DNA from: Aquabacter sp. L1I39
Lineage (GTDB): Bacteria > Pseudomonadota > Alphaproteobacteria > Rhizobiales > Xanthobacteraceae
Length of the DNA: 64,000 bases
Assembly (NCBI RefSeq): GCF_017742835.1
Contig: NZ_CP072392.1
Coordinates: 2,030,385 to 2,094,384, forward strand
Direction of reading: 5' to 3'
Numbering within the stretch: position 1 is the stretch's first letter; each line of letters starts with the position of its first letter. Under the pieces are notes generated by a model that saw only the letters and a program-made list of their open reading frames with translations, was not told the DNA's origin and ran no database searches. A program made the position numbers and the translations under genes. This document shows, one piece after another, positions 2,735 through 9,480 of this stretch.

Positions 2735-3637
2735 GTGCCTGATCTTGCCGATCTCTTTCCCGGCTTTGAGTCCCGCAATGTGGACACCCCCGCCGGGCGC
2801 ATCTTCGCCCGGGTCGGCGGCGAGGGCCCTCCCCTCCTTCTTCTGCACGGTTTTCCGCAGACGGGCGTCATGTGGCACAAGGTGGTCCCCGCTTTGGCCA
2901 AGACCCACCGCCTCGTCATCCCCGATCTGCCTGGCTATGGCTGGAGCGCCGCCCCCGAGCCGGGCCGCGACCACGCCCCCTATTCCAAGCGCGCCATGGC
3001 GGCGGCGCTGGTTCACGTCATGGAAGACCTCGGCCACGCCCATTTCGCGCTCGCTGGTCATGATCGCGGCGCGCGCGTCGGCTATCGGCTGGCGCTGGAT
3101 GCCCCGGGTCGGGTGGACCGTCTGGCGGTGCTGGACATCGTGCCTACCTTGACCATGTGGCACGGCATGGACCGGGCCCGCGCCCTCCAGGTCTATCACT
3201 GGGCCTTCCTCGCCCAGCCCCATCCCTTGCCGGAGAAGATGATCGGCGCCGACCCCGCCTTCTTCCTGGACTGGACCCTGGCCAGTTGGACCGCCGCGAA
3301 GGATCTCTCCGCCTTCGATCCCCGCGCCCACGCCCATTACCGCGCGGCTTTTTCCTCGCCCGACCATATCCGCGCCTGCTGCGAGGATTATCGCGCCGGG
3401 GCCACCATCGACCTCGCCCATGACGAGGCGGACCTGGCCGCCGGCCGGCAAATCGATTGCGAAGTCCTGGCGGTGTGGGGCGCGGCGGGCATTCCCAGCC
3501 GAGGCGTCAGTCCGCTGGACGCCTGGAAGGTGTTCGCCCCCAAGCGCCGGGGCGGCCCGGTGGAGGCCGGGCATTTCATATGCGAGGAGGCGCCCGAGGC
3601 GGTGAGCGCGGCGCTTCAGGACTTCTTCAGCGCATGA
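2735..3637 (+). CDS. Fluoroacetate dehalogenase-type alpha/beta hydrolase
   Basis: Predicted haloacetate/fluoroacetate dehalogenase, hydrolysing haloacetates to glycolate and halide. With the GTG start at 2735 (AGGAGGA 4 nt upstream) the 300-residue protein has the nucleophile Asp110 in GHDRG, Arg111 and Arg114, Asp134, His155-Trp156, Tyr219 and catalytic His280. These are the residues, at the same numbers, that define the Rhodopseudomonas/Burkholderia fluoroacetate dehalogenases: the triad (110/134/280), the carboxylate-binding arginines and the fluoride pocket (155/156/219). That match also supports the start. The oxyanion segment HGFPQTG (38-44) is typical. Epoxide hydrolases share the fold but lack the His-Trp pair. 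No fluoride exporter gene or fluoride riboswitch is adjacent. The last 11 bp overlap the convergent membrane-protein gene. Confidence 0.85.
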
Positions 3638-3995
3638 GGGCGACCCGCCGAGCGCCGCCAAAGCCGACGAGATAGAGCCCGATATAGGTGGCGATGGTCG
3701 CCCCCACCGCGCCGGCCGCCCAGATGCCTGTGGCCAGCAGCCAGTCGATGGGACCGCCCAGGTCTTCCAGCCGCGAACTGGTGATGAACAGCATGAACCA
3801 GATGCCGACGAAGCCGCCGGCAAGGCCCACCAATTCAGACCAAACCAGCCGCCGCGCATCGAGCCCGCGCTCGCGCACCAGGATCATCAAGAGGCCGAGG
3901 GCGCAGGTCACCACGAACAGGACAAGCGGCCAGAAGGTGCGGCCGAGGATTTCCTGGAACACCGCCAGGAACACCATGGGATCAAGGTCTTTCAT
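3627..3995 (-). CDS. Small three-helix membrane protein of the sulfide locus
   Basis: A 122-residue integral membrane protein with predicted helices near residues 18-38, 52-74 and 84-112 and an Arg-rich loop between the first two ([10 protein letters not shown]). AAGGAG sits 6-7 nt before the ATG at 3995. It is the last gene of the SLAC1-SQR-membrane protein series and starts 11 nt after the SQR stop, so co-transcription is very likely. I cannot assign a biochemical function. It resembles the uncharacterised DUF5368-type proteins that I associate with sulfide:quinone oxidoreductase genes, but that family assignment is from memory. A role in anchoring or supporting SQR at the membrane is a guess from context. 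Confidence 0.75.
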
Positions 3996-4006
3996 GGCTC
4001 ACTCCT

Positions 4007-5344
4007 TCAGGCGAGGCCGCGCAGCATGGAAATGTAGGTGGGCTTCAGCGCAATCTCCTTCATGACCCAGGAGATCCACAGCTCCTCCAGCGGCGCGATG
4101 ATGCCGGGGAAGGAGGGGGTAAGGTTGTTCTCGTAGTCGAACTCCACCAGCATGGCCTGGCCGATGCGCGTGATGAGGGGACACGAGGTGTAGCCGTTAT
4201 AGACCGCCGTGGAGGTGCCACCCGTCAGTGTCGCCACCAGATGGTCCAGGGCCACCGGCACTTGCCATTTGACCGAGGCCGCGGTCTTGCCCTTGGGCAC
4301 GCCGGCCACGTCGCCGACACCGAACACGTTGGGGAACCTTTTGTGCCGCAAGGTGGAGCGGTCCACCTCCATCCAGCCGTCGGCCGCGAACGGGCCGGTG
4401 GTCCAGGGCAGCGGCGAGTTGCGCACCGCTGCCGGGGCGCGCATGGGCGGGATGACATTGGTGAAGTCGTAGCCGATCTCCACCGGGCCGTTGGGGGTGG
4501 CGAAGGTGGCAATCTTGCGGCCCGGATCGATGGCCGTCATCACGTGGTTGTAGGCCACCTTCACGCCGCGGTCCTGGAACAGCATGCGCACCTTCTCGGA
4601 GACGATGGGCACGCTGAACAGCGTGGTGTTCTGCGCCGCATAGACCAACTCCGCTTTCCCCCGCATGCCGCGCTGGCGCAGGGTGTCGTCGGTGATGAAG
4701 GTGTATTTGAGCGGCGCGCCCGCGCACTTCATCTCCGTGGCCGGCCGTCCGAACAGGCCGACGCCGCCGGTATCGGCAAAGCGCGACATTTCCTCATAGG
4801 TGGCCGCCGCCTGGTCGGGCCCGGCATAGACCGAGCCGATGCCGTTGCGGCCGATGAGCGCGAGGTCCATGCCGGCAATGCCGCCATAATTGAGCTCGAG
4901 CCCCGTGGCCACCACCAGGAAGTCGTAGGGCACCGCACGCCCGGAGGCGGTGACCAGCTTGTTGCCCACCGGATCGAACTCGGCCACCGCCTCCTCGATC
5001 CACTCCACGCCGCGCGGCACATAGGCGCCGGTCGGCGACACCGAATAGGCGGGCGGCTTCAGGCCGGCCGCGATCAGCGTGAAGCCGGGCTGGTAATAAT
5101 GCTGCTTGCGGGCATCCACCAGGGTGATGGTGGCGCCGGTGAGGCGCTCCGCAAGCCGGGAGGCCGCCGCAAGGCCGGCGGCGCCGGCGCCCGCAATCAC
5201 GATGCGCGCCTTGGTGTCCACCGGGGCGGCCAATACCCGCCCTCCAGCCAGGGCGGCGGCCGCCAGGGCGCCGCCCAGCTTCAGGACCTGGCGGCGGCGA
5301 AGACCCCGTTGTGCGCCCTTTTGGGGATCATGAAATCCAGGCAT
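4007..5344 (-). CDS. sqr: Sulfide:quinone oxidoreductase, type II, with Tat-like leader
   Basis: Flavoprotein expected to oxidise sulfide to sulfane sulfur and pass electrons to membrane quinone. The 445-residue product has an FAD-binding motif GAGAAG (52-57) and the two redox cysteines in MKCAGAPLK (Cys207) and GYTSCPLIT (Cys388). The latter context, followed by an EFDY segment, matches the mitochondrial-type (type II) SQRs rather than the classical phototroph type. An N-terminal LRRRQVLKLGG stretch (15-25) and a hydrophobic Ala-rich segment look like a twin-arginine export signal, placing the enzyme on the periplasmic side. The ATG at 5344 has GGGAG 5 nt upstream; the frame continues upstream but only inside the preceding gene. 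It lies 64 bp downstream of the SLAC1-type channel. Confidence 0.9.
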   Translation of the reverse strand: MPGFHDPQKGAQRGLRRRQVLKLGGALAAAALAGGRVLAAPVDTKARIVIAGAGAAGLAAASRLAERLTGATITLVDARKQHYYQPGFTLIAAGLKPPAYSVSPTGAYVPRGVEWIEEAVAEFDPVGNKLVTASGRAVPYDFLVVATGLELNYGGIAGMDLALIGRNGIGSVYAGPDQAAATYEEMSRFADTGGVGLFGRPATEMKCAGAPLKYTFITDDTLRQRGMRGKAELVYAAQNTTLFSVPIVSEKVRMLFQDRGVKVAYNHVMTAIDPGRKIATFATPNGPVEIGYDFTNVIPPMRAPAAVRNSPLPWTTGPFAADGWMEVDRSTLRHKRFPNVFGVGDVAGVPKGKTAASVKWQVPVALDHLVATLTGGTSTAVYNGYTSCPLITRIGQAMLVEFDYENNLTPSFPGIIAPLEELWISWVMKEIALKPTYISMLRGLA

Positions 5345-5408
5345 GTTTACTCCCTTCGATGGTCGCTTTTTTGCTTTTGGAGCTTGGGCAGCGCTGGCGC
5401 TGCCCCGA

Positions 5409-6401
5409 TCAGGTTTCCGGAGCGACCAGATGGCCCTGCCATGCGGCGCGCAGCGTCGCCGCCGTGACCAAGGCGAGCAGTGCGGTCGCCACCAGGAGGA
5501 CCACCCAGGCGAAAAAGGCCGCCATTGGATCGGGGAAGGCGCGCACATAAAACTGGGTAGCGATGGCGAAGGCGGCGGTCGGGAAGGTCCAGGCCCACCA
5601 CGACACCGCGAATGGAATCTTCACCAGTTGCTGCGCCAGGGTGGCGAGCGCCAGTGCCACCATTGCCGCAAAGCCGAACAGCGCCAGCGCCGCCTCGCCG
5701 AACTGCCCGGTCAGCCGCACCAGGGCGATCAGGGCCACCGAAGGCGGGGCGAGCAGGATGACCAGGCTCGGCCGCAGACGGGGCGGCAAAGGCGGCCCCA
5801 CGATCAGCCGGTAGAGGATGGCCGGCTGGACGATCACCCACAGCAGGACGCCGATGCCGAACAGCATCCAGCTGATGTGCGGGAAGCCCAGGGTGACGCC
5901 CACGGTGGGGGCGAGCACGTTCCCGACCAGGGGAATGAGAAGCGGCGGGGTGAGGGCAGCGGCTTCGCGCGGCGCCGTTACGAGCCCCCGCAGGATCCAC
6001 ACGCCGATTCCCACATGGACGACCACTGCCGTCAGCCACAGGTCGCGTGCAAATTCCGGCAGGTAGCGGAACAAGCCGGCGGACAGAATCATAAGGCCTA
6101 TGGTAAAGGCGCCCGCGAATGCAGACCGCACCGGGTGGCGCAGATCTTCGCGGAGCGCTTCGGGATGTTGAGCGGCGCGGACAAGGTGAAGCAAGGTGAC
6201 CAGCAGCCAGGTGACAAGGGCTGCAGCCAGAAGCGCTTCCCCCACCAGGGCCGGCGCACCGAGCACATGCGCTGCCTCCCGCCAGGCAAGACCGCCACCG
6301 CCAAGTCCCATGGGCGCCGCGAACAGGGGCAAGGGCAGATGGGCAAGGCTCCCTCTCCCTGCGGCATGGGCCGCCTGGGGGGTCGCAGACGTCGGCAGCA
6401 T
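5409..6401 (-). CDS. SLAC1/TDT-family anion channel or exporter
   Basis: A 330-residue membrane protein of the SLAC1/TehA (tellurite-resistance/dicarboxylate transporter) family, with about ten hydrophobic helices starting with a FAAPMGLGGGGLAW segment like the first helix of TehA-type channels. Family members move small anions: sulfite in fungal SSU1, nitrate or chloride in plant SLAC1, malate in yeast. The ATG at 6401 is supported by AAGGAGGA 9 nt upstream. The gene is first in the operon with sqr and divergent from a sulfide-sensing repressor, so export of a sulfur anion (sulfite, hydrosulfide or another sulfide-oxidation product) is the best contextual guess. The substrate cannot be read from sequence. 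Confidence 0.85.
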   Translation of the reverse strand: MLPTSATPQAAHAAGRGSLAHLPLPLFAAPMGLGGGGLAWREAAHVLGAPALVGEALLAAALVTWLLVTLLHLVRAAQHPEALREDLRHPVRSAFAGAFTIGLMILSAGLFRYLPEFARDLWLTAVVVHVGIGVWILRGLVTAPREAAALTPPLLIPLVGNVLAPTVGVTLGFPHISWMLFGIGVLLWVIVQPAILYRLIVGPPLPPRLRPSLVILLAPPSVALIALVRLTGQFGEAALALFGFAAMVALALATLAQQLVKIPFAVSWWAWTFPTAAFAIATQFYVRAFPDPMAAFFAWVVLLVATALLALVTAATLRAAWQGHLVAPET

Positions 6402-6537
6402 GGCGGCATTCCTCCTTCGGCATGGCCCGGTCCGGGCACATGGCGCCTCCCCCTGCAGTGCGGAAGGCTGGACCCTGGTGAGGCCAGGAAGCTGCAGGCA
6501 CGGAACGCCTTCTTTACGTAACATTCAATTCTGTTAA

Positions 6538-6553
6538 ATTCAATACTATGAAT
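6538..6553. promoter_or_regulatory. SqrR/BigR-type operator ATTC-N8-GAAT
   Basis: The 146-bp space between the channel gene and the repressor gene holds ATTCAATACTATGAAT at 6538-6553, an exact ATTC-N8-GAAT palindrome, the form described for the sulfide/persulfide sensor SqrR. It spans the repressor's own ATG (6548-6550), so binding would block both start codon and transcription start. A second ATTCAA half-site lies at 6523-6528, 15 bp away. The local stretch is strikingly AT-rich compared with its surroundings. Confidence 0.75.
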
Positions 6554-6913
6554 GTCTCAGATCTACTCCCCGCTGCGGAACGTGCGGCCGAACTCATGCG
6601 CAGCCTGTCCCATCCACAGCGCCTTCTGGTGCTCTGCGCCCTTGCGGAGACGGAGAAATCGGTGGCGACGCTGCGGGAGGAACTGGGCATCGGGCAGGTG
6701 CCCATGTCGCAGCAATTGATGCGCCTGCGCGCCGATGGCCTCGTGGAGGCGCGGCGCGAGGGCGTTTCCATGGTCTACCGCATCGCCCGGCCCGAAGTGG
6801 CGGTGATCGTCCAGGCCCTGCACAAGGCGTTCTGCGCCGAGACCTGCGTCGAGATGCCCGAGGTGACGGACGATGCGGGGGGGACGGCCGGGCGGCCGGC
6901 GGAGCGCGGCTGA
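6548..6913 (+). CDS. ArsR-family sulfide/persulfide-sensing repressor (SqrR/BigR type)
   Basis: A 121-residue winged-helix repressor of the ArsR family. Cys30 (in LLVLCALAE) and Cys96 (in HKAFCAETC) are 66 residues apart, the same spacing as the redox pair Cys41/Cys107 of SqrR and Cys42/Cys108 of BigR, which form a disulfide or polysulfide link on exposure to reactive sulfur. Cys100 is an extra cysteine. The recognition helix lies around VPMSQQLMRLRADGLV. The gene is divergent from the SLAC1-sqr-membrane protein operon, which it probably represses together with itself. No Shine-Dalgarno sequence is visible before the ATG at 6548, so translation may be leaderless; a later start at Met17 (6596) is possible. 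The Gly/Pro-rich C-terminal 20 residues look unstructured. Confidence 0.88.
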   Translation: MNVSDLLPAAERAAELMRSLSHPQRLLVLCALAETEKSVATLREELGIGQVPMSQQLMRLRADGLVEARREGVSMVYRIARPEVAVIVQALHKAFCAETCVEMPEVTDDAGGTAGRPAERG

Positions 6914-6972
6914 CGGGAAGCGAGCACGGGCGCGGCGCCTTTATGCGCCGGCGTCACCGGGGCAGCGGGGGG

Positions 6973-7401
6973 TCAGCGCCGGTCCTTGAAGAAATTGCGC
7001 AGCACCTCGGCGGCCTGCCGCTCGGCGATGCCGCCATAGACTTCCGGGGCATGGTGGCAGGTGGGCTGGCTGTAGAAGCGCGGGCCGCTGTCCACCGCGC
7101 CCCCCTTGGGATCGGCGGCGCCATAATAAAGCCGGCGGATACGCGCGAAGGAGATGGCCGCCGCGCACATGGCGCAGGGCTCCAGCGTCACATAGAGATC
7201 GCAGTTCACCAGCCGCTCGGCGCCCAGCGTGGCCGCGCCTGCGCGCAGCACCTGCATCTCCGCATGGGCGGTGGGATCTGAGTTTTCACGCGTGCGATTG
7301 CCGTCGCGGGCGATCACCGTGGAGCCACGCACCAGCACCGCCCCCACCGGCACCTCGCCCCGCGCGGCGGCGGCACGGGCCTCGGCCAGCGCCATCTGCA
7401 T
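6973..7401 (-). CDS. tadA: tRNA-specific adenosine deaminase
   Basis: Deaminates adenosine 34 to inosine in the anticodon of tRNA-Arg(ACG), an essential modification. The 142-residue protein has the zinc/proton-shuttle motif HAE (His46, Glu48) and the zinc ligands Cys76 and Cys79 in PCAMC, in the usual order and at the usual length. The ATG at 7401 gives MQMALAEARAAAARGEVPVG, aligning with the family start; a GTG 15 nt upstream (7416) with GGAG before it would add five residues and is an equally possible start. Divergent from rluB. Longer open frames on this strand running into rluB are antisense shadows. Confidence 0.93.
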   Translation of the reverse strand: MQMALAEARAAAARGEVPVGAVLVRGSTVIARDGNRTRENSDPTAHAEMQVLRAGAATLGAERLVNCDLYVTLEPCAMCAAAISFARIRRLYYGAADPKGGAVDSGPRFYSQPTCHHAPEVYGGIAERQAAEVLRNFFKDRR

Positions 7402-7470: not shown

Positions 7471-9480
7471 ATGCCCCGTACACAGCCTCCCCGCAAGGAC
7501 AAGAACCGCGTCCCGCGCGTCAAAACCGCGCTGCCGCCCGCCCAAACCAAGGACGCCGAGCGCGTCGCCAAGGTGATCGCCCGCGCCGGTCTCGGCTCGC
7601 GGCGCGAGATCGAGGACTGGATCCTGGAAGGGCGGGTGGCCGTCAACGGCACCGTCCTGACCACCCCTGCCTTCACCGTGACGGCGGAGGACGCCATTAC
7701 CGTGGACGGCGCGCCCCTGCCGGAGCGTGAGCGCACGCGCCTGTTCCTCTACCACAAGCCCCGCGGCGTGGTGACCACCAACAAGGATCCGGAAGGGCGC
7801 ACGACACTCTTCGAGATCCTGCCCAAGGGCCTGCCCCGCCTCGTCAGCGTCGGCCGGCTCGACTTGAATTCCGAAGGCCTGCTGCTGCTCACCAATGATG
7901 GCGGCCTCGCCCGGGTGCTGGAATTGCCGGAGACCGGCTGGCTGCGCCGCTACCGCGTGCGCGCCAAGGGCGAGATCGACCAGGCCCAGCTCGACGGCCT
8001 CATCAAGGGCATCACCGTGGAGGGCGTGGAATACGGCCCCATCGAGGCGACCCTCGACCGCGTGCAGGGCGCCAATGCGTGGATCACGGTGGCCCTGCGC
8101 GAAGGCAAGAATCGCGAGGTGCGCAATGTGCTGGGCGCCCTCGGCCTCCTGGTGAACCGCCTGATCCGCGTCTCCTACGGCCCGTTCCAATTGGGCGAGG
8201 TGCCGGAAGGCGGCATCGAGGAAGTGCGCACCCGCATCCTGCGGGACCAGATGGGCGCCGAGATCATCGCAGCCTCCGGCGCGGACTTTGACGGCCCCAT
8301 CCTGGATCAGCCCGTGGAACCGCCCGCCCGCCGCGTGCGCACCGAGGCGGCCGAGGACGCGGGCGAGGAGCGCCGTCCCACCCGCCGTGGCCCGCCCCGC
8401 CGCGCCGAGCCCGAGCCGGAGCCGCGGGGCCGCGCCCGTCGCCCGCGTGGCGCAGCAGAGGAGACCACCGCCTTCCGCGTGCGTAGCCGCCGGGGCGAGG
8501 AGGAGCGCGAGTTGGAAAGCCGTGGCACCGTCTCCGACCGCAAGGGCCGCGAGATCAAGGTGGAGCGCGTGGTGAAGCCGCGCGAGGAGCCCCGGCGGGG
8601 CAAGTCCGCTGACGGTCGCCCGCCTCGCAAGGGCGGCCAGCGCGGCTTGGACGATGCGCGGGGCGAAAAGCCCCGCTTCGGCCGAGGTCGCCCCGGCTTC
8701 AGCCGTGATGAAGGGGAATTTGGCGGCCGTCCCGCCCGGGGCGGGGCCCGGCCGCCCCGCCGCGACGAGCGCCCCCGCTCGGAGGGGGATGATGTGGGCT
8801 TCCTGCCGCGCGGTCCCCGCGCCGGTGCCGAGCGCGGCGAGCGTCCCGCCCGTCCCTTCCGCGAACGCTCTGAGCGTCCCGAGAGCGGCGCCCGTCCGCC
8901 CCGTGCCGGTGGCCGCTTCGGCGGGGACCGGGAAGAGCGCGGCGAGCGTCCCGCCCGTCCCTTCCGCGAACGGTCGGAGCGTTCCGAAGGCGGCGCCCGT
9001 CCGCCTCGTGCCGGTGGCCGCTTCGGCGGGGACCGGGAAGAGCGCGGCGAACGTCCCGCCCGTCCCTTCCGCGAGCGCTCCGAGCGCCCCGAAGGCGGCG
9101 CCCGCCCGCCCCGTTCTGGTGGCCGCTTCGGCGGTGACCGGGAGGAGCGTGGCGAACGCCCGGCCCGTCCCTTCCGCGAACGCTCTGAGCGTCCCGAGGG
9201 GGGCGAACGGCCCCAGCGGTCCGGTGGATTCCGCTCCGGTGGACGGGACGACGGCCCGAAGGGCTTCAAGGGCGGCGCCGGCAAGCGGCCGTCTTATGGG
9301 GAGGATCGTCCGCGCGGCCCGGCCGGGCCTGGCAAGGGCGGCCCCAAAGGCGGGCCGAAGGGCCGTCCCTCCGGCGGCTTCAAGGCTGGCCCCAAAGGCG
9401 GCGGCAAAGGTGGCCCGAAGGGCGGGCCCGGTGGCTCAGGCCCGCGCGGCCGGTCGTCCAGTCCCCGCAGCCGGGGCTGA
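7471..9480 (+). CDS. rluB: 23S rRNA pseudouridine synthase RluB with long repeat tail
   Basis: Pseudouridine synthase of the RsuA/RluB/RluE/RluF group, acting on 23S rRNA near the peptidyl-transferase centre. Residues 28-85 form an S4 RNA-binding domain (VAKVIARAGLGSRREIEDWI). The catalytic domain follows, with the nucleophile Asp131 in VGRLDLNSEGLLLLTNDGG. The core ends near residue 260. About 400 further residues are an Arg/Gly/Pro/Glu-rich, low-complexity tail containing four copies of a 35-residue unit (residues about 456-590) and ending in Gly-Pro-Lys-Gly repeats. The tail is very basic and likely binds RNA or ribosomes. Total length of 669 is more than double the bacterial core enzyme. 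No clear ribosome binding site precedes the ATG at 7471. Confidence 0.93.
   Translation: MPRTQPPRKDKNRVPRVKTALPPAQTKDAERVAKVIARAGLGSRREIEDWILEGRVAVNGTVLTTPAFTVTAEDAITVDGAPLPERERTRLFLYHKPRGVVTTNKDPEGRTTLFEILPKGLPRLVSVGRLDLNSEGLLLLTNDGGLARVLELPETGWLRRYRVRAKGEIDQAQLDGLIKGITVEGVEYGPIEATLDRVQGANAWITVALREGKNREVRNVLGALGLLVNRLIRVSYGPFQLGEVPEGGIEEVRTRILRDQMGAEIIAASGADFDGPILDQPVEPPARRVRTEAAEDAGEERRPTRRGPPRRAEPEPEPRGRARRPRGAAEETTAFRVRSRRGEEERELESRGTVSDRKGREIKVERVVKPREEPRRGKSADGRPPRKGGQRGLDDARGEKPRFGRGRPGFSRDEGEFGGRPARGGARPPRRDERPRSEGDDVGFLPRGPRAGAERGERPARPFRERSERPESGARPPRAGGRFGGDREERGERPARPFRERSERSEGGARPPRAGGRFGGDREERGERPARPFRERSERPEGGARPPRSGGRFGGDREERGERPARPFRERSERPEGGERPQRSGGFRSGGRDDGPKGFKGGAGKRPSYGEDRPRGPAGPGKGGPKGGPKGRPSGGFKAGPKGGGKGGPKGGPGGSGPRGRSSSPRSRG
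8836..9240 (+). repeat. In-frame tandem repeat, 105-bp unit, about 3.9 copies
   Basis: Direct repeats with a period of exactly 105 bp (35 codons): unit starts fall at 8836, 8941, 9046 and 9151. Each encodes the order ERGERPARPF-RERSERPE-GARPPR-GGRFGGDRE. Units differ mostly at third positions and in a few residues (Ser/Glu after SER, Ala/Ser before GGR), and the last unit degrades into GGERPQRSGG. The repeat lies wholly inside the rluB coding frame, so copy number can change without a frameshift. Confidence 0.95.

Follow-up and report, generated by a model that had tools for sequence, protein, structure and literature searches.

A candidate sulfide-responsive operon combining a twin-arginine-type sulfide:quinone oxidoreductase, DUF5368 and a SLAC1-type channel in Aquabacter sp. 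L1I39

We analyzed a 64,000-nucleotide stretch of the genome of Aquabacter sp. L1I39 (contig NZ_CP072392.1, positions 2,030,385 to 2,094,384; hereafter the window), in which four genes are located within positions 3627-6913 (Table 1; G, C and L numbers are our handles for genomes, contigs and loci). A repressor gene of the ArsR family faces a set of genes for a SLAC1/TehA-type anion channel, for a sulfide:quinone oxidoreductase (SQR) and for a small membrane protein identified as DUF5368. The reading that we favor, with a probability of about 0.58, is that of a sulfide-responsive detoxification operon that is controlled by the repressor and encodes an SQR exported by twin-arginine translocation (Tat), a DUF5368 partner of this enzyme and a channel that passes sulfur anions. 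The four genes, their divergent layout and the first position of the channel in the SQR operon were all found where a first-pass annotation of the sequence had placed them, while the operator, the twin-arginine motif of SQR and the identity of DUF5368 had escaped it.

The repressor scored 69.4 bits against NF033788, which is above the cut-off, and 28.9 bits against PF01022. Among solved structures, it is closest to BigR (3pqj) and to an ArsR regulator of the 6o8l series, the latter being SqrR. The spacing of 66 residues between Cys30 and Cys96, already recognized in the first-pass annotation as that of SqrR and BigR, was recovered, and both residues align with the BigR cysteine pair. Both are kept in 120 of 120 sequences, these being the best 120 of 663 homologs and including the protein of the window, and Cys100 is not kept. 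The sequence ATTC-N8-GAAT, given in the available part of one source as the recognition sequence of Rhodobacter capsulatus SqrR (PMC9774250), occurs in strict form only once in the window, at the start of the repressor gene.

Relatives of the repressor at E <= 1e-24 were identified in 19 other genomes when 297 genomes of the order were searched. Seventeen of these relatives, 63-73% identical to the repressor, are referred to here as orthologs; the other two are 47-55% identical. The predicted site was found in all 18 promoters of the window repressor and its orthologs, in strict form at -10 in 10 and with one mismatch in 8. Random stretches from 24 loci, in which the sites themselves were left in, yielded 29 strict matches and 161 matches with up to one mismatch per 9600 stretches. 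Since the 17 orthologs are related, the result represents conservation of the operator and not 18 independent gains. A site with one mismatch was also present in the promoter of the L154 repressor, and no site below two mismatches was found in the 95 nt examined for the two distant relatives and for the L153, L127 and L099 repressors (42-46% identical). Upstream of the SQR signal region, a strict site was located within 200 nt in 3 of the 48 SQR-DUF5368 loci described below, as compared to 0.08 expected.

The genes divergent from the repressor include an RND pump in 17 of the 17 orthologs, with an adaptor seen in 16, and an SQR-like gene, 22-25% identical to the SQR of the window, is divergently upstream of the repressor in 11. 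These SQR-like genes begin just before the nucleotide-binding motif, and several of them allow longer frames. The ortholog loci are likely to represent an RND efflux operon linked to sulfide, the operator of which is strongly conserved. The comparison suggests that the repressor clade normally guards genes for sulfide oxidation and efflux, and that in the window both the SQR and the transporter under its guard would be of another kind. The proposal of the first-pass annotation that a persulfide-type sensor controls the set agrees with the dithiol, the SqrR-type operator and the SQR-like gene facing 11 of the 17 orthologs, and sulfur control of the gene set appears well supported at the level of sequence. 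A YgaP-like membrane protein is encoded near the repressor in 9 of the 17 ortholog loci (L229-L245).

The closest solved relative of the SQR is the human mitochondrial SQOR (6mp5, E 5.7e-65). Both cysteines align with those of the human enzyme, which confirms their contexts as given in the first-pass annotation, KCAGAP for Cys207 and YTSCPL for Cys388; a third cysteine was not found. The protein has the cysteine pattern of the mitochondrial-type (type II) SQRs. The only NCBIfam SQR model listed for the protein was that of the type III selenoprotein, with 189.5 bits against a cut-off of 525. For comparison, we assembled a set of 48 SQRs, of which 47 came from loci reached through DUF5368 or from the window and one (L042) was reached through the channel, with the fragmentary L056 left out. 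Cys207 is kept in 48 of the 48 sequences and Cys388 in 47, the exception being a broken copy.

All 48 SQRs match a loose pattern for the twin-arginine motif, and a hydrophobic stretch is visible by eye behind the motif. For L116, L217 and L224 the pattern caught an earlier pair of arginines, and the proper motif with its hydrophobic stretch was also seen by eye. SQRs of other types encoded nearby have no such motif by eye: two distant copies, one in L109 and one in L110, carry an additional domain at the N-terminus, and the SQR-like genes of the repressor orthologs have the short starts described above. Since the motif is found in all 48 sequences, the SQR is probably exported via Tat and thus periplasmic.

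The small membrane protein matched PF17336 with 122.2 bits, as compared to a cut-off of 25. Its AlphaFold2 model (pLDDT 87.2) contains helices at residues 6-42, 47-72 and 82-110, and no clear structural match was found for this predicted model. Among 297 genomes of the order, 22 carried a DUF5368 gene above the cut-off, as did 13 of the 385 genomes searched for the class and 14 of the 198 for the family, the genome of the window being included in each count. The set examined comprised 47 hits in 46 genomes, with a marginal hit from the order set (G293, 25.2 bits) left out. Judged by coordinates, each of the 47 DUF5368 genes directly follows an SQR gene, and the SQRs in question are 54-76% identical to that of the window; the survey was made from the DUF5368 side and thus covers those SQRs that are accompanied by DUF5368. 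The first-pass annotation had proposed that the small membrane protein supports SQR; the linkage shows that the two go together, and a partnership of SQR and DUF5368 appears well supported.

A search of plasmid proteins returned 22 records with an SQR of the same kind, of which 6 were inspected. DUF5368 is annotated after SQR in Paracoccus denitrificans PD1222, Peteryoungia desertarenae, Pannonibacter phragmitetus BB and Nitratireductor sp. OM-1; a Cereibacter sphaeroides plasmid has an unnamed short protein after SQR, and the record of Azospirillum lipoferum is unannotated there. Within 5.5 kb of the pair, genes for cytochrome bd were found in 8 of the 48 loci, an RND pump in 4, an ArsR protein in 4 and a dioxygenase in 2. 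On plasmid 1 of P. denitrificans PD1222 (L249:5809-12030), where the SQR is PDEN_RS23370 and the DUF5368 protein PDEN_RS23375, the pair is convergent with genes for an RND permease, an adaptor and a DUF2892 protein. A broken SQR copy is located next to a second DUF5368 gene in L114 (G146), and the channel next to the pair in L111 (G116) contains an in-frame stop; the broken genes possibly reflect a set that is decaying in part of the lineages. DUF5368 was not mentioned in the open-licence literature searched.

The channel matched PF03595 with 159.5 bits (cut-off 27.9) over its full length, residues 21-317 aligning with model positions 1-331. Structural matches were obtained to TehA (3m72, E 9.4e-21) and SLAH3 (9m7r, E 8e-18). 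Phe264, a candidate for the phenylalanine that gates the pore, is invariant in the 27 rows of an alignment of close channel relatives (A1) and belongs to an FxxSWW stretch that aligns with SLAH3. A total of 30 SLAC1 genes above the cut-off were identified in 24 of the 46 DUF5368 genomes. In 9 of the 47 loci, a SLAC1 gene is located at most 3 kb from DUF5368, in all 9 on the same strand and in one (G116) with the in-frame stop; the chance expectation within 5 kb is 0.07, a value that ignores kinship. The order SLAC1-SQR-DUF5368 was also observed in Elioraea (L042, L056) and on a plasmid of P. phragmitetus BB. In one further Aquabacter genome (G677), the channel was found alone at the same site.

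When 99 channels were placed on a tree, the 10 rows linked to SQR fell in two deep clades. The channel of L111/G116 is absent from this tree, as its frame is interrupted by a stop and the remaining piece is shorter than 220 aa. The tree implies five changes of linkage, of which at least three are forced by well-supported branches, and rows on long branches make the number unsure. A single origin of the channel-SQR pair in the close group, with the channels of the window, Elioraea and L047 in one clade, was rejected by the approximately unbiased (AU) test (p 0.0003). The count does not separate gains from losses, and a repeated recruitment of the channel to SQR is likely.

The channel, SQR and DUF5368 genes are co-oriented and separated by 64 and 11 nt. 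By eye, each of them is preceded by a GGAG-type stretch. The three genes are likely to form one operon. No sigma-70-like promoters were found in 3500-7000, where the scan is uninformative for this organism. Outside the set, a frame at 7471-9480, pseudouridine-synthase-like by eye, contains a long repeat tail rich in Arg, Glu, Pro and Gly (8400-9480).

Table 1. Genes and sequence elements of the candidate operon, with positions in the window.
Feature	Position	Strand	Details
SqrR/BigR-like ArsR repressor	6548-6913	+	121 aa; Cys30, Cys96
Predicted operator ATTC-N8-GAAT	6538-6553	no strand	Overlaps the start codon of the repressor gene; located between the two divergently oriented genes
SLAC1/TehA (TDT) anion channel	5409-6401	-	Operon gene 1; 330 aa; PF03595
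Sulfide:quinone oxidoreductase (SQR)	4007-5344	-	445 aa; Cys207, Cys388; 6mp5 match
Twin-arginine (Tat-type) signal region of SQR	5225-5344	-	Residues 1-40, RRRQVLKLGGALAAAALAGG; loose motif pattern
DUF5368 small membrane protein	3627-3995	-	122 aa, three predicted helices; PF17336

According to the detoxification reading, the repressor would be bound to ATTC-N8-GAAT in a resting cell and keep the operon as well as its own gene switched off. Persulfide or polysulfide would link Cys30 to Cys96 and free the DNA, as judged from the characterized homologs. The SQR would fold with its flavin in the cytoplasm and then, as its signal suggests, be exported via Tat. At the outer face of the inner membrane, it would pass the electrons of sulfide to quinone, in keeping with the chemistry of its family. 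DUF5368 would serve as a dedicated integral-membrane partner of SQR, most likely as a membrane dock or as support on the quinone side. The channel would provide a passive exit for small sulfur anions from the cytoplasm, driven by the inside-negative potential. Since the SQR is apparently exported, the simplest cargo would be hydrosulfide, to be oxidized outside by the SQR, with sulfite and thiosulfate as alternatives. Hydrosulfide efflux to an outer SQR fits the parts best, and the cargo of the channel is the least certain step of the scheme.

Several findings weigh against the detoxification reading. The repressor scored 83.7 bits against the BigR equivalog model NF040642 and did not reach its cut-off of 155, and is therefore called SqrR/BigR-like here and not BigR in the narrow sense; none of the 34 genomes searched had a match to this model above the cut-off. 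The putative export of the SQR is read from a sequence motif, and H2S needs no channel to pass through membranes. In 38 of the 48 SQR-DUF5368 loci, the 5.5 kb around the pair revealed no channel, so that it is not essential to the pair. From the channel side, where the best 80 of 93 loci fetched through the channel were surveyed and some stretches end near the channel, an SQR of the window's type was present in 3 of the 80. These were found among the 40 loci with a channel at least 47% identical to that of the window, as compared to 0 of the 40 more distant ones, and the number was 2 of 26 for loci of the former group with 3 kb on both sides. The full four-gene layout with a divergent ArsR gene, searched for with three ArsR queries, was observed in 2 of the 48 loci, the window and L153/L047, where L153 and L047 are the same contig as judged by length. 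The L153 repressor is 46% identical to that of the window, with no site below two mismatches in the 95 nt examined. Finally, in G677, the other Aquabacter genome compared, the channel stands alone between the same flanking genes.

A tighter coupling of the same parts is a tentative possibility. The four genes would then specify a membrane-spanning unit, in which the channel passes hydrosulfide or short polysulfide straight to a Tat-exported SQR held at the membrane by DUF5368. Sulfide would then be oxidized outside the cytoplasm, with the cytoplasmic persulfide sensor in control.

We consider it unlikely that sulfide is instead oxidized inside the cell, with a dioxygenase converting the persulfide to sulfite or thiosulfate, and with export of this product by the SLAC1 channel in place of the TauE protein of bigR-type operons. 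The yeast protein Ssu1, a relative in the SLAC1 family, exports sulfite, and the genome of the window contains a dioxygenase-like gene. There are also precedents in the available parts of two sources, which describe a sensor, an oxidizing enzyme and a TauE-related sulfite transporter in one operon of Xylella and Agrobacterium (PMC5823870) and a PDO1-SQR-TauE operon in Acinetobacter (PMC7315123). However, the SQR is apparently exported, none of the four genes encodes a dioxygenase, such genes are present near the pair in only 2 of the 48 loci, and the dioxygenase-like gene of the genome has a TauE-type neighbor of its own. Export of a sulfide-oxidation product by the channel, as proposed in the first-pass annotation, was not supported as written, since the twin-arginine motif suggests that the product should form in the periplasm and not in the cytoplasm, which makes its export by the channel less direct.

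Rather improbable, in our view, is a resident housekeeping anion channel around which the SQR-DUF5368 pair and the repressor landed, such that co-transcription carries no sulfur meaning. At the G677 site, the flanks are 85-93% identical in nucleotide sequence and the channel is 59% identical in amino acid sequence to that of the window, with no close SQR, DUF5368 or repressor found at the site. A clade of the window channel and the Aquabacter channels was not rejected by the AU test (p 0.68), with a higher score for the joint tree, and 77 of the best 80 of 93 channel-fetched loci have no SQR of the window's type. These observations are countered by a pairing of channel and SQR that is found in both of the deep channel clades, exceeds chance and is same-strand in 9 of 9 loci, and by the occurrence of the three-gene order in Elioraea and Pannonibacter. 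Given the 59% identity of the channel as compared to 85-93% for the DNA of its flanks, replacement of a resident channel by a whole cassette was considered first. The SQR pair and the repressor may have been added to a channel already present at the site, or a cassette may have taken the place of the channel.

That the repressor senses a non-sulfur signal, such as a metal or the general redox state, with an incidental linkage to SQR, would accord with its ArsR family and the missed BigR cut-off, but is very improbable in view of the dithiol kept in the best 120 of 663 homologs, the SqrR-type operator and the SQR-like gene facing 11 of the 17 orthologs.

The design of the candidate detoxification operon is a variant of a known combination of sensor, sulfide-oxidizing enzyme and anion exit, the closest known example of which is bigR-blh-TauE. 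As far as the available part of the source describes it, the bigR operon of Xylella and Agrobacterium resembles the set in the window in having a dithiol ArsR repressor over a sulfur-oxidizing enzyme and an anion exporter, and its repressor acts at the -10 region (PMC5823870). Its enzyme is a transferase/dioxygenase and its exporter is related to TauE, whereas the set in the window has a SLAC1 channel and DUF5368 together with an SQR that carries a Tat-type motif, with neither a dioxygenase nor a TauE gene among the four. The view of the first-pass annotation that a SLAC1 channel paired with SQR under a persulfide sensor is a distinct arrangement therefore holds in part. No description of the gene combination was found in the open-licence literature searched, mostly at listing level, and SLAC1 was mentioned together with sulfide quinone in a plant review only; the pairing nevertheless recurs in other genomes, and the design of sensor, enzyme and exporter was already known.

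In Rhodobacter capsulatus, sqr is the target of SqrR, and we know of no SLAC1 channel or DUF5368 described for this system. Cst-like operons have CstR as one of their sensors. The R. capsulatus system shares with the window the type of repressor and the recognition of ATTC-N8-GAAT, according to the available part of the source (PMC9774250). The cst-like SQR-PDO-TauE operons of Acinetobacter and Staphylococcus likewise place an SQR and an anion exporter under a persulfide sensor, but differ in that the sensor is FisR, the exporter is TauE and a dioxygenase is encoded inside the operon, with DUF5368 not named in the part of the source available (PMC7315123). The plasmid p.BB_1 of P. phragmitetus BB has the same three genes in the same order, annotated in the public record by product names only, and differs in having an AraC-type regulator before them and a cytochrome c peroxidase gene after them. 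In the available part of a survey of sHdrR and SoxR, RND pumps, TauE and YeeE transporters are targets or neighbors of ArsR regulators responsive to sulfane sulfur, and SLAC1, TehA and "anion channel" are absent from its main text (PMC12423496). A SLAC1 channel would add one more transporter to the RND, TauE and YeeE proteins near such regulators.

Two related gene groups were observed elsewhere in the genome of the window. The dioxygenase-like gene mentioned above encodes a metallo-beta-lactamase fold, is 46% identical to the Blh-dioxygenase-like gene of L114 and is divergent from a TauE/SafE-family gene (L248:4906-6819; C1, ~24.4-26.3 kb); the two are likely to be a sulfite-making and exporting pair. 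A second SqrR/BigR-like ArsR gene is divergent from Sulf_transp and DUF6691 genes, which we take to be YeeE/PmpAB-like (L168:5383-6989; C1, ~1704 kb), and the congener G677 carries on C33 a repressor with nearly the same score as this second ArsR gene.

Little is known of what bacterial SLAC1/TehA channels normally carry. Since the channel and DUF5368 are linked to one apparently exported type of SQR, their roles are directly testable, also in cultivated strains such as P. denitrificans PD1222, which has the SQR-DUF5368 pair. The SQRs of this clade may act on the outer face of the membrane, and the membrane-spanning unit, if true, would assign a physiological cargo to a bacterial SLAC1/TehA homolog and make DUF5368 a subunit of SQR.

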